Positions 11,536-30,110 of a stretch of 34,042 nucleotides of DNA are shown piece after piece; positions within the stretch are counted from its first letter, which is position 1, and each line of letters starts with the position of its first letter. Position numbers and translations under genes: made by a program. The notes beneath the pieces were generated by a model. The model did not search any database. It was not told where the DNA came from and saw only the letters and a list, made by a program, of their open reading frames with translations. This stretch comes from Dicyema japonicum (Eukaryota; Dicyemida; Rhombozoa; Dicyemidae), in contig RDEW01000012.1 of NCBI GenBank assembly GCA_011109175.1, positions 717,932 to 751,973 on the forward strand. Reading direction: 5' to 3'.

Positions 11536-11742
11536 TCGAAAAATGCTAAATAATTAAATTTATAATTTTTTGACGATTTTATTTATTTATATTATAAATA
11601 AATTTATAAAATAAATAAAATTATATTTAATCTTTTCTAAATTATTCAAAAAAATAAATAAATAAAGTCATTCAAGAGTTTATGAGTAAAAAATATCAGT
11701 TTTTGGTAGACAAGAATATCCAAGCCACGGCAGAGTGAGACC

Positions 11743-12105
11743 NNNNNNNNNNNNNNNNNNNNNNNNNNNNNNNNNNNNNNNNNNNNNNNNNNNNNNNNNN
11801 NNNNNNNNNNNNNNNNNNNNNNNNNNNNNNNNNNNNNNNNNNNNNNNNNNNNNNNNNNNNNNNNNNNNNNNNNNNNNNNNNNNNNNNNNNNNNNNNNNNN
11901 NNNNNNNNNNNNNNNNNNNNNNNNNNNNNNNNNNNNNNNNNNNNNNNNNNNNNNNNNNNNNNNNNNNNNNNNNNNNNNNNNNNNNNNNNNNNNNNNNNNN
12001 NNNNNNNNNNNNNNNNNNNNNNNNNNNNNNNNNNNNNNNNNNNNNNNNNNNNNNNNNNNNNNNNNNNNNNNNNNNNNNNNNNNNNNNNNNNNNNNNNNNN
12101 NNNNN
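11743..12105. other. Assembly gap (363 N)
   Basis: A run of N. The LAMP-like copy a enters it from the high-coordinate side. The sequence on the low side (11646-11742) does not match the LAMP-like gene, so the 3' half of copy a must lie inside. Copy b has about 625 bp beyond the corresponding point, more than the N count, so the gap length is probably nominal or copy a is truncated. Confidence 0.95.
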
Positions 12106-12600
12106 GATTTTTCCCAATAAAATACCAATATCGAACATTTGGATCGTTTGATGGATCACAGTCATGTGCTGAATAAAACTATCTCAAACCTTTTTCAATA
12201 AAATGTGAATATGAGAGATTATTGTAAAATTTTATTGCTAAAGAATATAATGTGAGAATATTACCATTCTCAAAAAATACGGATATATATCCGCATCTGT
12301 AATAATCTCCATGTTCAATATGCGGAAGATATGTTGTATTTGTATAAATTTCATTATCTTTATGGAAGATATGTTGTATTTGTATAAATTTCACTATTAA
12401 ATACTAGAATTTAATTCTATTTTTATTGAGATGTTGTAAAATTCGTCTGAGAATTTAATAAAAAACTGGTAGATCAAGTTATTCTTTTGGATTGTAACTG
12501 ACATTTCATCAAAAGACAATTGGAAATACTTACAATTGAATTATCGCTTGTCTACCATTATTATTTATAAAATACATTTGTAATTGTACTTTTCAATAAA
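12106..12600 (-). CDS. LAMP: LAMP-like gene, 5' part (copy a, cut by gap)
   Basis: This segment parallels copy b (10505-10900) at high identity, including the same 21-nt intron (12169-12189) and the exon reading KNNLIYQFFIKFSDEFYNIS, then HGDYYRC and AHDCDPSNDPN. Upstream, the frame remains open further than in copy b (YFQLSFDEMSVTIQ), so this copy keeps the better 5' end. A 40-bp tandem duplication (12324-12403) repeats the acceptor region of the second intron, giving two possible acceptors. The 3' part is lost in the N-gap. Whether it is expressed is unknown. Confidence 0.6.
12324..12403. repeat. 40-bp tandem repeat in LAMP-like copy a
   Basis: The segment starting ggaagatatgttgtatttgt occurs at 12324 and 12364. 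It duplicates an intron acceptor and the first bases of the next exon. Confidence 0.8.
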
Positions 12601-13653: not shown

Positions 13654-14067
13654 TCACAACCGTTCGTAGATAGCCTCGTGGGAATTGAATTCTGAATTAC
13701 TGGGCTTCTCGTTGGCCACAACGTAGATTAAGGGAGAGTCCTTTCTGAGGCTTCGTATCTTCATTTGTAGGTTGTACACGTGTTTGAAGGACCGTTGTTC
13801 ATGTTGGTCAAACACGAGGATGAATGCGTCCGACTCCACAATGTTGATCCTCTCCATTGAAGGAAAGAAACAGCTCCCACCTGAGTCGATGACTTTAAGG
13901 TTGATTTCTTTCTTTAAAACTCTCATTTTGAGATTGTAGCAGTTCTCTACGGTGGCTTTGTACGGTCTCTCTTGGTGAGGGAACATGATGCTCTCTATGA
14001 AGGACGTCTTCCCAGTTAGAGGACTACCCATTATACACAACCGTATCTGTTTCTGACAGTTCAGCAT
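13654..14067 (-). CDS. Ras-like small GTPase, C-terminus interrupted
   Basis: An uninterrupted 137-codon frame from ATG 14067 encodes a Ras-fold protein. The P-loop is GSPLTGKT. An effector-like TVENCYN resembles the TVEDLY of RASD/Rhes-type proteins. The switch II region is VIDSGGSCFFPSM (a DxxG variant of DTSGNYSFPAM), followed by DAFILVFDQHEQRSF. The guanine-specificity motif NKxD is degraded to NEKP, so nucleotide selectivity may be altered. After TGA (about 13651) the same frame continues with VFFVNVK, which fits the SAK region, a TAG, then a helix ESIQILKKIANDLEKSL that fits the last Ras helix. Several GT-AG pairs of 15-40 nt lie here, but none I tried restores the whole frame. Either splicing is more complex or the gene is truncated. 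No prenylation box is visible. Confidence 0.65.
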   Translation of the reverse strand: MLNCQKQIRLCIMGSPLTGKTSFIESIMFPHQERPYKATVENCYNLKMRVLKKEINLKVIDSGGSCFFPSMERINIVESDAFILVFDQHEQRSFKHVYNLQMKIRSLRKDSPLIYVVANEKPSNSEFNSHEAIYERL

Positions 14068-14852
14068 TATTTTTAGTAAATCACCTGTTTTATATATTCA
14101 CATTGATCGGTTCTATTAATAGGAACTGTGGAGGTCATAACTTTTGTTGGCCTTTCTTTCATTTCGGGGACATTTCGTTCATAATATTTTGGCTGTTTGC
14201 TCGGGGGATAGCTTTATTAAATGTTTCCATCTCCTCAAGGTCGATATGCCACCTTGTCCCCTAGACTTGTAAACATTGGAAATAAAAGCTGTGACATAAG
14301 GAGAAACGGATGCACGAATATGTAGGTTTGAATCCCATCGGACTCCAATTGGATGAAATTGGAGAAGTCTAGTTTGGGGAGAACAAGGTTATTACTTCTC
14401 GAATGTTCTTACAATAAGGAATTTGAGTTTTCAAGACGAATATCATCCACCCTACATAAAATACGATGAGCTATCCAAACTCTAAGCTTTCCGTGAGTAG
14501 GGGTACCACGAGCATATGAGTTTTCAAAAAATAATTTCTTAAATTTTGTGGCCTAACATGATCGAAAATCAAAAATGATAGATTTATAAAATATGGTTAT
14601 AAAATGAAATAAGTGAAGGAATCTAACGTGGAAGATTATCCAGGGTGTTGCAGAAGAAGATTACTAGTTGCCTTAAAACAATAATAAGTTTGACGAATCA
14701 ACACACTTGATCTCTTCGGATCAATGCACTTATGCACTTATTTAGTAATATAAGTCGATTTATACTAAATATAAATTAACAATTTAAATAAACGTAATTA
14801 ATATTATAAATAAATAAATTTATAATATAAGATAGGTTAATTTCCAGTAGTG
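14068..14852. other. Intergenic, no clear gene
   Basis: No family recognised. At 14322-14335, ggtttgaatccca resembles a tRNA B-box, but the T-stem is mismatched and no tRNA fold forms around it. Short minus-strand stretches such as EEMETFNKAIPRANSQN look coding-like but cannot be assembled. Confidence 0.4.
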
Positions 14853-21929: not shown

Positions 21930-24782
21930 TTTTTTAAATTTATTTTATTTAAATTTAAACAATAGAAGTCAGGTAGTAGCCGCCCTCACCGCGTGGCTGT
22001 TTTCTCTCAAAATTGCGAGCGAAATTCGCTCAAATAGCCAGCGGCGTTCGCGGAGATCTCCAGTGCATGAGGTGATCCGGTTTCCAAGACGTCCGAAAAA
22101 CTCGAGTGTAGAGGGGGAGTAGGATCCGGAAGTCTCCATAGCAAGGGGAACAAATTTGACATCATCGGGAAGGTCGACGTATTTAACGAGTTTGGCCTTC
22201 TCCGCCTTTACGGATGCTGAACAGGCCCTTGTAGCACTCTCGTGAAGATTTTTCTGATGGAACGTGTCTGTACATGTCACATCCCAATCCAGTGGTTTCC
22301 CGGCCTCAAATGGAAATATGGTCATCCCGTCCGGTCGTTTCCCGTCACTTCTGCATAACCCGACCGGTTCAAGAATGGCCGAGTATCCAGCAGCATCCAT
22401 AGCTTGCCTGATAATTTGATTCAAAGCCTTGGGGATCTGCCAGCGCTCCTCCTGCAGGCGAGAGGGTGCAGGCCATAGCAGTCTATCAGGATGCCACATC
22501 GGCACGGTGAAGTACACATACTTTTAGTCCCAGCCGCAGAGAGATACCAGTTCTAACGCATTCATCATCCAGAAAAGTGCCCAAAGCTCCATTGGGGATG
22601 GCGTTTAGCCAAACTCCGCTCTCAGGGGAAGCCCCTGAAAGCAAACAAGCGCGTCGGTGCTGATTGGCAGATTCTAGTAGGAGTCCAAATGATTTCCAGC
22701 ATAATAAGTTGTCCAGGTTTCGCTGGCGATCTTGGGAAGGAGGCAGGGGGAGGTTGGTGGCATTCCAGGCTTCTCGTGCGTGGATTATCTCTTGGTCAGT
22801 TGAGAATTCGGGTGGGGAGTGTAGAATCCTCCTGAACAAAGGTTCGCAGGCCGTGAGTGATGATAAATGAGCGGGAAGTGAGACGTCCAAAGTTCGACGG
22901 ATTCAAAGACCCCCGAATCTAACTGGGAGTGTAGCCTGCATCCATGTATCATCTTCGAATCGGACATTAAATATTTGCTCCGTCGAGCTGAGTAGAGACA
23001 AATCAAAATTTTCGAGCAGCTCCAGTTGAGAATAATATGGAGCTGTCCTTAGTAGATAGGAGATTCTCTGGATGTTGAGACTTCTTTTCAATAGGAATAG
23101 TGCTGTGTGCAAGTCCAGCAGCTGTAATCTTTCTAGCGAATCGCATAGGAGTTGTTTTTTGTCAAGGAGGACATGCTTCATCGCATTACTAGTGATCGGG
23201 GATCCAAGAAAAATCAATTCATTTTCAGGGCTCGAAATCCCACCGGGAAACAAGGAGTGAAATTTTTGAACAATTGAAGAGAAGTCATCGTCAGCAAGAC
23301 CAGAGTTTGTTATTTCACATTTCGTTATATTCAACTGAAGACCCACCTCGGACAGCGCGGGGGTGAGTACTTCTAAGTCCTGGAAGACCGTTTCCGGGGG
23401 ACCTCCTAAGACAGCGTCATCGAGGTACCAGATGTTGAGTGGGCATCTAGAGAGCTTCGTGATCCTCTCAATGCCGAGGGAAACAGCAGTGGTCCGAGGG
23501 GGTCGCCCTGTTGAACACCTGAGGACGATGGAACTATGAAATCCCCGTGCAATAGTGATGAAGGTTTTGCGTATGAATAATTGACCAGTTCAAATATGTA
23601 CGGACATCTTTCCTTGCAGGCCTCCAGAATGCAGTCTCTTCTTAAGCTGTTAAAAGCGTTCTTGATGTCCAGTTTTACCATAATGTGCCTTTTAAAGTCT
23701 TGAATGCTGCTGTTCCTGAATCTTCTGACGGAGTGAACGGCTGCCTCACATCCAAGACGGACTCCGACTCCAACTTGACTGGGAAGTAAAAATTTTGACA
23801 AGATTGACGTAGAAAATCTGGAAGCAATCTTGGCTGCTACTCTTATGAAAGTGAATCCGACCGCGATCGGGCGGATTCCACCTCCCTTCTTGTCGACGGC
23901 AATCAGACTAGCCGAAAACAAGATATGACGTATCAAATCAGGCAAATGTCCAGATAATATCCTGTTCATAAGAGAAGTGAGTGAGTATGAAAGACGACTT
24001 GCTTGGTCTCCAATAGTCGGTGAAATAAGGTCTTTAAGATGGCCGGGCCTTAAGCCATCGAGACCTCCACAGCTACTTGGTGCAAAGTTCCATAACGCCG
24101 TTCTGACATCCTCAGGCGGCGTGGTCAAAGGGGTCGCTTCTGATGGGGGCGAGCAATGGCGTAGGTCATTCGGAGAGGGTGGATGTTTCCCCAATAGCGT
24201 CTTGTAAGTATCAATGGTTGGATTGCGTGGTCCATCTGAGAGTGAGAGGGCCTTCAATGCGGATCGGGTTCCTCCTTCAAGCAACTTCGATCGTACGGTC
24301 TTTCTTAGGCGAAGAATCTCCGTTTTCCGAGTTGAACTCCGAGTCTCAGTTGAACGGATGCAGAAGGACGTGAGGTCCGTAAAGTGAGTTCCATCCATAA
24401 ATGCGCGGATGTTGTTCTTCATCTCAATCGAGAGAGACTCCTTCCCATTGCGATCTCTAGAGGAGCCAAGACCGAAAGGAGCAAAATTAAACAAACGTAT
24501 CCAGTCGTTTATAGAGTCGGAGCGGAGTGCATCGTCGATTGCTTTGGTTAAGGCTTCGGCAGCTAGGGGGCGGGCTGCTTTAGGGATCTTCACCGGGATA
24601 CTCCTCGATGACCGGCGTTCATTGATAATTTTGAGCAGCGAATCTGGATCCAAATGGGAAAGGTCTGCCCCCGGGGGTACATGCACTCGCGTGACCATTA
24701 GGAAACCCCGAACCAATTCCAAGGCACGAGCGGCAGTGCCATACCCCAAGAGCACGGATAGAGGCCTGATTTTTATAAACAC
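21930..24782 (-). mobile_element. LINE-A: RLE-type non-LTR retrotransposon, nearly intact
   Basis: About 930 codons on minus encode a reverse transcriptase followed by a restriction-like endonuclease, as in R2/NeSL/CRE-type LINEs. RT blocks in order are GGLDGLRPGHLKDL, KKGGGIRPIAVGFT, MVKLDIKNAFNSLRR, SSGVQQGDPLGPLLF and the catalytic WYLDDAVLG. Thumb and linker follow (ATLPVRFGG), then the CRCG...GLHPLACRR knuckle and the nuclease PD-D core KRPDGMTIFP...WDVTC. Only three lesions are visible: one base missing near 23487 (before YLDD), TGA for Gly at 22903-22905, and one base missing near 22500 in the knuckle. The 3' UTR is very short and ends in an A run at about 21931. No ATG opens the frame; it starts at the junction with LINE-B, so the 5' end is truncated. 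Confidence 0.85.
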
Positions 24783-24788
24783 ATTTAT

Positions 24789-27960: not shown

Positions 27961-28288
27961 CAACAGTTAAAACATAATAAACGCTTTTGTTTAAAAAAAT
28001 GACAAATCAGGTCAGAACAATCCCACTAACAACAATTTTTGAATTTTTACAGTTGATTATAGCAGGCCACATAAAGTACTTAATATTCTTATTACTCACA
28101 TCAGAACGGGAGTGTCGCACGTGCCAACAGTTAAAACATAATAAACGCTTTTGTTTAAAAAAATGACAAATCAGGTCAGAACAATCCCACTAACAACAAT
28201 TTTTGAATTTTTACAGTTTATTATAGCAGGCCACATAAAGTACTTAATATTCTTATTACTCACATCAGAACGGGAGTGTCGCACGTGC
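27961..28288. repeat. 164-bp tandem duplication at Mieap-like gene 3' end
   Basis: Bases 27961-28124 recur at 28125-28288 with one visible difference (gttgatta versus gtttatta). The unit contains the C-terminal codons and stop of the Mieap-like gene, so the extra copy lies just past its 3' end. Confidence 0.92.
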
Positions 28289-28851
28289 CACAGTCCATTA
28301 AACTCCCTGTCCATATGTTTGTACACATATGACCTATGTCTTAGTTTCATGCACCAATTGAATCGCACACAACGTTCAATAAACTGACTCCACATGCCAC
28401 AATGCTCAACCTCTTCAAAACCCTCCAAATTATCAAGGAGTTTGTTGTTGACCTCATTTTCGACCTCCTTCAGGTTAAATCCAACACATGTCTTGCTTAA
28501 GTAGGTGGTAATATGCTGCTGTAATGTCAGGACTTCTTCGTTGTTGGCTTTACAGACTGGGTGGTACAAAAGTTGTTCCACGGTCTCCATTATGGTCTCC
28601 AAATGACGAGCAGTCACCTTTTCAGCCAAAAGTAGAACAGTGGTCACTATTTTGTCCTGGAGGACAGTCTGACCTTCAAAACAAGGAAGATTTCCGAATT
28701 CGTTCAAGATCATGCTCTGTCCTAGGTTATAGAGATCACGGAATTTGTCCACGATATAGAAACAAGGTCTACAAGTCAAAGAATTCGTATTATGATCCAC
28801 AATGTTATTGTTTCCACTTTGAAGACCACCTGTTCGATCGAGTGACTCCAT
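28171..28851 (-). CDS. Mieap-like C-terminal domain protein
   Basis: A 226-codon frame without introns runs from ATG 28851. It resembles the C-terminal domain of mitochondria-eating protein (Mieap/SPATA18). CRPCFYIVDKFRDLYNLGQS matches the family's 'P-x-x-x-A-x-x-F-x-E-L-Y'. Helices with LL.. patterns follow. The end FIERCVRFNWCMKL, then EFNGLWHVRHSRSD, IKYFMWPAI and VVSGIVLT, fits the domain's closing strand pattern. In vertebrates Mieap acts in mitochondrial quality control; many invertebrates have divergent copies of unknown role. The coiled-coil N-terminus of full Mieap is absent. The family call rests on a remembered pattern, not a search. Confidence 0.55.
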   Translation of the reverse strand: MESLDRTGGLQSGNNNIVDHNTNSLTCRPCFYIVDKFRDLYNLGQSMILNEFGNLPCFEGQTVLQDKIVTTVLLLAEKVTARHLETIMETVEQLLYHPVCKANNEEVLTLQQHITTYLSKTCVGFNLKEVENEVNNKLLDNLEGFEEVEHCGMWSQFIERCVRFNWCMKLRHRSYVYKHMDREFNGLWHVRHSRSDVSNKNIKYFMWPAIINCKNSKIVVSGIVLT

Positions 28852-29451: not shown

Positions 29452-30110
29452 ATGATAAGAGCAGTGTTGATTTTTAATCTGGCAGGAAAACTAAGATTTG
29501 TCAAATTTTACACAAATTACGTAATTAATCTCTTATTTTAATTAAAGACAGAAAAAGAACAATCCTATATCACTCGGGAGATATTTATGTCGGTTTCCTC
29601 GAGAAAAAAGCAAGATTCCTCGTTTCTTGAGGGAGTTAGGTTGACACATATATTATTCCAGAATGTTGGGAGACAACGACAACATCCTCGTTTGCCGAAC
29701 CTACGCAACACTGCATTTTATATTCTGCGTTGATTCCGTGGAGAATTACCTAGGAATCCTGGACTTGATCCACGTTTGTGCTCAAATTTAGAATTAGGTT
29801 TTTGTGGAGGTTCTTGATTATATTTTTACGAATGTCTGCGAGGTTGATTTGGTTTTTCACTCGGAAAAAGTAATCGTGGCTTTCACTTTAGGTCCACTCG
29901 GTTCTCAATGAGATCATCGTAGGAGGACTCGTCTTGGAGGTTTCTAAGAATCAACTCGTCTCGAGGATCAATAAGATCGAAAAGATGGAACGATCACAGG
30001 TCTCCATTTATGGATTAATCTAGAATGGACTTGTGGAGAACGCGAAAAGTCTATTGAACATCAAATACAGGGATATTTCCAATTTTGTAAAATATTTTTC
30101 TAAAAAATAA
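29452..30110 (+). CDS. AP3S: AP-3 complex subunit sigma
   Basis: Six exons (29452-29520, 29548-29639, 29662-29773, 29798-29869, 29892-29999, 30024-30110) joined over GT-AG introns of 27, 22, 24, 22 and 24 nt give 179 residues with all phases consistent. The product matches AP-3 sigma along its length: IRAVLIFNLAGKLRFVKFY at the N-terminus, FLEGV, RTYATLHFIFCVDS, ENYLGILDLIHVFVEVLD, NVCEVDLVFHSEKVHSVLNE, VGGLVLEVSKNQ, IEKMERSQ and a short C-terminal tail (human about 193 residues). Sigma subunits are the small longin-fold core of adaptor complexes; AP-3 sorts cargo from endosomes to lysosomes and related organelles. No lesion is seen. AATAAA follows 15 bp after the stop. AP3S1 and AP3S2 cannot be distinguished. 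Confidence 0.93.

Follow-up and report, generated by a model that had tools for sequence, protein, structure and literature searches.

Five predicted introns of 22-27 nt in a dicyemid AP-3 sigma gene and a candidate branch-point adenine near the 3' end of tiny introns

Very short introns have been described in dicyemids, which are minute parasitic animals, from several sources. In the available text of these reports, intron length averages 26.2 nt for 16 introns (PMC2222250) and is about 25 nt for 41 introns (PMC2483917), the median in the predicted genes of Dicyema sp. is 27 nt (PMC6543705), and the 67.5 Mb genome of D. japonicum has a mean intron of 38.2 nt (PMC6736024). No branch-point signature is reported for dicyemids in the available text of PMC2483917, whose table gives shared hexamers in the 41 introns; this paper was the sole relevant item among the matches listed for dicyemid branch points. 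Introns of 20-35 nt in Paramecium tetraurelia, as cited in PMC2222250, fall in the same size class in an unrelated lineage and are likened here by length alone. The branch adenine of the introns of Stentor coeruleus lies at position 10 of 15 (PMC9505925). The window considered here is the whole stretch of DNA that was analysed, 34,042 nt of D. japonicum. The introns found in it and elsewhere in the genome belong to the same size class as those of Dicyema acuticephalum, D. japonicum and Dicyema sp. and have similarly weak 5' splice sites (PMC2222250, PMC6736024, PMC6543705, PMC2483917). At its core the finding concerns an ordinary gene, and tiny introns had been recorded in the lineage before; the regime is published (PMC2222250, PMC6543705, PMC2483917) and the present gene adds one case. 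The new value lies in a positioned adenine and in an expansion of the sigma subunits.

The stretch from 29452 to 30110 very likely encodes AP-3 sigma, which is the small subunit of the cargo-sorting AP-3 complex, in six exons on the forward strand, with introns of 22-27 nt that are predicted to be removed by the ordinary major spliceosome. Exon 1 (29452-29520, 69 nt) begins with ATG and holds codons 1-23, and the alignment to AP-3 sigma-1 starts at residue 1. It is followed by predicted intron 1 (29521-29547, 27 nt, phase 0), exon 2 (29548-29639, 92 nt), intron 2 (29640-29661, 22 nt, phase 2), exon 3 (29662-29773, 112 nt), intron 3 (29774-29797, 24 nt, phase 0), exon 4 (29798-29869, 72 nt) and intron 4 (29870-29891, 22 nt, phase 0). 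Exons 2, 3 and 4 are placed by the joined model and the AP-3 sigma-1 alignment. Exon 5 (29892-29999, 108 nt), where the conserved sigma domain ends, is covered by both Pfam and AP-3 sigma-1 alignments. Predicted intron 5 (30000-30023, 24 nt, phase 0) separates it from exon 6 (30024-30110, 87 nt), a C-terminal tail that ends in YFSKK and a stop. All five introns are GT...AG, and the joined exons make 540 nt, that is 179 codons plus stop, with no internal stop.

The identity of the product is supported by several searches. PF01217 aligns to the joined protein with all but one of its 142 profile positions, 1-141 (E 4.8e-40), which is the whole domain at residues 1-147, and AP-3 sigma-1 chains in the PDB match the protein without gaps over residues 1-156 (E 2.6e-49, 170.6 bits). 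The AP-1, AP-2 and AP-4 sigmas in the PDB score 93.9 bits or less (E 9.7e-26 or weaker), and a chain named just 'AP complex subunit sigma' gives E 3.5e-26. The best seven proteins in a large database are fluke AP-3 sigmas with 53-55% identity, and a tree groups the window protein with AP-3 (100/98, bootstrap/SH-aLRT). The AP-3 complex subunit sigma-1 of PDB 9c58 (chain S), which we take to be mammalian, has the same whole sigma domain, alignable without gaps over 156 residues, whereas the C-terminal tail of the window protein is short and unlike that of the PDB chain. An earlier note on this DNA had proposed a complete AP-3 sigma spread over six exons, with five GT-AG introns of 22-27 nt in correct phase, and the protein search with the joined exons bears this out. 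The same note held that no open frame exceeds about 40 codons, which is slightly off: the sense strand has a stop-to-stop frame of 63 codons at 29542-29733, which contains exon 2, and another of 48 codons at 29645-29791, which contains exon 3, and the antisense strand has one of 50 codons. It had also suggested that gene callers would miss such genes. Pfam profiles run against the six-frame translation, in which introns are not modelled, match the exon 3-4 region, with exon 3 inside the matched stretch (E 4.4e-12), so gene finding is hindered but not blocked. A published dicyemid genome was annotated by a trained AUGUSTUS together with RNA reads (PMC6736024).

The predicted introns 1-4 are fixed by homology. 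A dynamic-programming spliced aligner that was blind to the gene model recovers all four at three penalties; its sole reference was human AP3S1, which is identical over 1-156 to the first-listed PDB AP-3 sigma-1 chain. When the GT-AG rule is removed, the lengths 27, 22, 24 and 22 nt are returned again with borders off by 0-6 nt. Intron 5 is retrieved at the lowest penalty only. Beyond exon 5, where the tail matches weakly, the aligner is unreliable and places spurious long or non-GT-AG gaps downstream.

A census of introns was taken across the genome, which was searched as 64.67 Mb in 191 contigs. It covered 55 loci, 12 of them sigma loci and 43 Ras-family loci (a subset of the loci behind 97 Ras-family matches), with 20 human proteins as references (15 Ras-family, 5 sigma-type); 54 of the 55 loci scored at least 150. 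An intron was taken as well supported when at least 8 residues aligned with a good score on either side and no gap lay near the junction. There were 111 such introns from 47 loci, with a median of 24 nt, and 104 of them measured 19-28 nt. The remaining seven ranged from 44 to 184 nt, and the one of 184 nt, in the paralogue L047, contradicts the paralogue-comparison model and is probably false. Related loci are not independent, and eight of the 104 tiny introns are near-copies. When GT-AG was exchanged for another border pair, of which 16 were tried on the same loci, the procedure gave between 1 and 14 introns per pair, against the 111 for GT-AG. The median lies below the published D. japonicum mean (PMC6736024), the comparison being with 111 introns of conserved genes; because the census leans on conserved domains, the small gap to the published values of 26.2, about 25 and 27 nt means little.

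The 5' site of these introns is almost free past the GT (n=83): position +3 is A in 48% and T in 42%, and position -1 is G in 54%. In the 83 introns, in-frame stops occur in 22 of the 30 whose length is a multiple of three, against 17.3 ± 2.5 expected, an excess that is at most suggestive. A scorer trained on 77 Ras-family introns told 27 sigma introns apart from 151 GT-AG decoys at an AUC of 0.948. Trained on other genes, the scorer ranks the five window introns 1, 2, 6, 8 and 9 among 27 GT-AG pairs, so sequence alone fails to single out the true introns; together with the AUC, these imperfect ranks indicate that length, base content and the adenine hold much of the information, not all of it. 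The earlier note had called this gene proof of the splicing regime. The regime is borne out by the 104 short introns among 111, but 'proof' is too strong a word for splicing predicted from sequence, with paralogues needed for intron 5.

Adenine is in excess at positions -7 (z 5.5) and -8 (z 3.8) from the intron end and nowhere else from -14 to -4. Counting positions from the 5' end instead makes the peak less sharp, with a largest z of 3.1 against 6.3. Of 96 non-redundant introns, 63 contain a T-N-A with its adenine at -8 to -6; shuffled introns give 34.7 ± 4.6, and 0 of 600 shuffles reach the observed count. The held-out set comprised 48 introns (56 before near-copies were removed), many of lower confidence, and there the adenine is found in 29 against 16.0 ± 3.2, reached in 0 of 2000. 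It is present in 92 of 144 introns, compared with 192 of 889 exonic GT-AG decoys of the same lengths and 74 of 229 A+T-rich decoys. More elaborate motifs give a varied picture. Over -9 to -5, YTNAY is mildly enriched (28 of 96 versus 21.3 ± 4.0), and over -8 to -6 the enrichment is clearer (24 versus 12.9 ± 3.2). Within the set of 83 introns the strict motifs are not enriched (CTAAC 0 versus 0.8; YTRAY 18 versus 19.1) and looser motifs are mildly so (TRAC 15 versus 8.6 ± 2.6; TNAY 69 versus 60.0 ± 3.6). The adenine is a statistical signal and as such a candidate branch point.

All five AP-3 sigma introns of the window carry a candidate T-N-A adenine 7-8 nt from the 3' end, at 29541 (or 29540) in intron 1, 29655 in intron 2, 29790 in intron 3, 29885 in intron 4 and 30017 in intron 5. 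This positioned adenine contrasts with the dicyemid literature, where no branch-point signature is reported in the available text (PMC2483917). It resembles what is described for Stentor coeruleus, whose 15-16-nt introns are likewise A+U-rich and have a fixed adenine near the 3' end (a 5-nt tail), with the snRNA cores kept (PMC9505925). There are also differences. Stentor is a ciliate with introns of 15-16 nt, whereas the introns studied here are those of an animal, are mostly 19-28 nt long and have a tail of about 5-7 nt; and several introns per gene are usual in the present sample, most Stentor genes being without any (PMC9505925). We lean towards the view that the branch point of tiny dicyemid introns is fixed 6-8 nt from the 3' end, that an ordinary animal spliceosome would measure from this end with hardly any room for a polypyrimidine tract, and that a Stentor-like design was reached independently; the five introns of the window gene would exemplify it.

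Does the genome encode the components that such splicing would call for? Nine of ten U6 matches lie above the Rfam cut-off, with ACAGAGA in 7 of the 7 that were read, as do 22 of 25 U2 matches, with GTGTAGTATC in 6 of 6 read. None of the 11 U1 candidates is above the cut-off (best 69.0 versus 69.5), and ACTTACCTG is present in 7 of 8 read. These eight U1 candidates (L056-L063) differ among themselves, and the 5' end is normal in seven. U2AF1 (contig C88) was matched by the human protein over 189 residues, 123 of them identical, and is itself predicted to be interrupted by six introns of 22-26 nt. Exons of U2AF2 (C114) and an SF1 domain (C45) were found as exon-level matches. Judged by these matches, the major snRNAs U1, U2 and U6 and U2AF/SF1 are present in this genome. 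It has been proposed here that recognition would take each tiny intron as a single short unit. Pairing of U1 at the near-degenerate GT would be weak, and U2 would pair at the T-N-A adenine 6-8 nt before the intron end, which in an intron of 22-24 nt leaves about 15-18 nt between the 5' splice site and this adenine; U2AF and SF1 may assist recognition. The genome has kept U1, U2, U6, U2AF and SF1, their cores being near-normal as far as they were read, and its introns nevertheless have a median of 24 nt with an adenine near the 3' end. With this combination, the way in which a complete animal spliceosome handles an intron of 22 nt becomes testable by lariat sequencing. Several common tools have a default minimum intron length near or above about 19 nt, and for dicyemids gene callers and spliced aligners have to accept introns down to about that length.

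The window gene is one of a family. The 23 PF01217 matches in the genome resolve into 12 sigma loci, namely the window gene (L004) and L045-L055, and their best alignments are to AP-3 sigma for five, AP-1 sigma for five and AP-2 sigma for two. Mu C-terminal domains were found in four loci and large-subunit domains in about eight, both counts being lower bounds. Set against these, the 12 sigma loci suggest a one-sided widening of the small adaptor subunit. In a tree of 23 rows (values as above), the five AP-3 sigmas form one clade (97/92) apart from the fluke and human AP-3 sigmas, the five AP-1 copies another (100/99), and the two AP-2 copies group together (98/94). Long terminal branches occur at several tips, and a program warning marks the grouping with human AP-4 sigma as possibly false. 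The copies vary in integrity under short-intron models: L050 aligns over just 102 residues, L045 and L053 contain a stop, and L054 starts a few residues in. Endocytosis is described as the dicyemid route of nutrient uptake, and a potential link to it is stated for six of ten gene clusters in D. japonicum, those with the strongest multiplication (PMC6736024). There was no dicyemid item among the matches listed in the literature for dicyemid adaptor subunits. The widened sigma family may suit feeding by endocytosis, and AP-3 would use the window protein as one sigma isoform among several. A second lead from this work is that, in an animal group known for reduction, a single small adaptor subunit has become numerous and the subunits that partner it have not.

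Introns are placed alike in the AP-3 sigma copies. Those at residues 24, 92 and 116, which correspond to introns 1, 3 and 4 of the window gene, occur in 4 of the 4 paralogues, that at residue 152 in three, and that at residue 54 (intron 2) in two, L047 and L054; at the intron 2 position L048 has no modelled intron and L053 has a shifted one of 18 nt. Intron 2 of L047 (C126:801961 region) is modelled at 38 nt, its counterpart in the window having 22 nt. Use of an AG that lies 22 nt into the L047 intron would put the reading frame out of register, which suggests that the 3' site was displaced downstream by 16 nt. In a comparison of the two genes that excluded this 38-nt intron, introns diverge more slowly than third codon positions (16/97 versus 45/145, p 0.011), but with the fixed borders left out the intron figure becomes 16/81 and the difference is no longer significant (p 0.085).

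The 3' end of the gene requires separate discussion, as homology to AP3S1 ends near intron 5 and the unspliced frame past 30000 stays open for seven further codons to a TAG at 30021-30023, so that homology alone leaves the 3' end undecided. The alternative is that introns 1-4 are real and the last segment is exonic, always or as an isoform, which would give a 158-aa protein with the whole sigma domain that ends at this TAG. In its favour are the open frame, the failure of AP3S1 homology to reach firmly into exon 6, and the nearest paralogue L047, which has an identical TAG-ending layout. Between the window gene and L047, exon 6 has 5, 7 and 5 changes by codon position and the other exons 16, 13 and 45; the lack of a third-position excess in exon 6 fits this alternative too and indicates that constraint on the tail is weak there. 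These points are countered by the other copies. At exactly the position of intron 5, and in its phase, an intron of 24 nt is modelled in L047, one of 23 nt in L048 and one of 25 nt in L054; those of L048 and L054 differ from it in length and letters. The tails end in YFSKK in the window and in L047 and in YFHKK in L048, whose intron thus precedes a tail ending like that of the window protein; in L053 a clean model fails past exon 5. Moreover, segment 30000-30023 resembles the other introns both in length and in its T-N-A adenine. We regard the 158-aa form as unlikely and intron 5 as real with good confidence, a judgement for which the paralogues in the same genome are the basis. Retention of introns 1 to 5 singly would bring a stop at codons 30, 85, 97, 129 and 159, respectively. 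Any one retained intron leads to an early stop, so an unspliced message would not yield the full protein, although with intron 5 retained the whole Pfam domain (residues 1-147) is still intact.

Two further explanations concern whether these segments are spliced out of a working message at all. The locus might be a decaying duplicate whose protein is not made, as the genome has five AP-3 sigma loci in all and remnants of mobile elements occur in other parts of the window. Its full-length frame, stop-free once joined, and the splice positions that it has in common with its paralogues speak against decay. So does the comparison with L047, in which dN is 0.12 and dS 0.57 (dN/dS about 0.2), values that point to purifying selection on the window gene; decay is accordingly considered very unlikely. 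The segments could also be cut from DNA rather than RNA in body cells, like internal eliminated sequences. Dicyemids are a group with small circular DNA, and 24,065 'circular' contigs are given for a published dicyemid assembly in the available text of PMC6543705. Against this stand the GT-AG borders, far above the 16 other border pairs, the presence of spliceosome components, and Pax6. The Pax6 gene of this genome, joined over tiny introns, has intron phases of 0 in the paired domain and of 1 and 0 in the homeodomain, in agreement with the phases stated for Dicyema Pax6 from cDNA compared with genomic DNA (PMC2222250); the comparison was of stated phases only. We hold DNA elimination to be extremely improbable, and removal of the five segments by splicing is the reading kept here.

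Pax6 also bears on the origin of the assembly. Its product is 65% identical over 100% of its length to Dicyema acuticephalum Pax6 (336 bits). Among the best 120 of 4664 matched proteins the next match has 52% identity over 98% (272 bits), and partial matches reach up to 63% over about half of the query. By this single gene the genome very probably has dicyemid affinity. An additional 20-nt intron in the paired-domain model is doubtful. Four paired-domain loci were seen (L009, L010, L012 and L014), of which L009 is Pax6-like and L012 and L014 are more divergent. Matches to the chaperonin family are spread over nine loci, which would correspond to eight CCT subunits plus mitochondrial HSP60, as expected of a haploid single-species assembly.

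Other features were noted in the window. From about 11740 to 12150 every frame listed translates to X (unreadable or withheld bases). Retroelement remnants on the reverse strand at 98-868 and 23409-24788 carry endonuclease (PF14529) and reverse transcriptase (PF00078) domains. A divergent Ras-like GTPase frame lies at 13657-14097 on the reverse strand (PF00071, E 3.4e-13), and a second match of near-equal score is located about 45 kb from it on the same contig (C23:686451-686786). Adjoining the AP-3 sigma gene on the reverse strand, at 28174-28851, is an open frame of 226 aa that matches PF16026 (mitochondria-eating protein) with E 4.3e-24.
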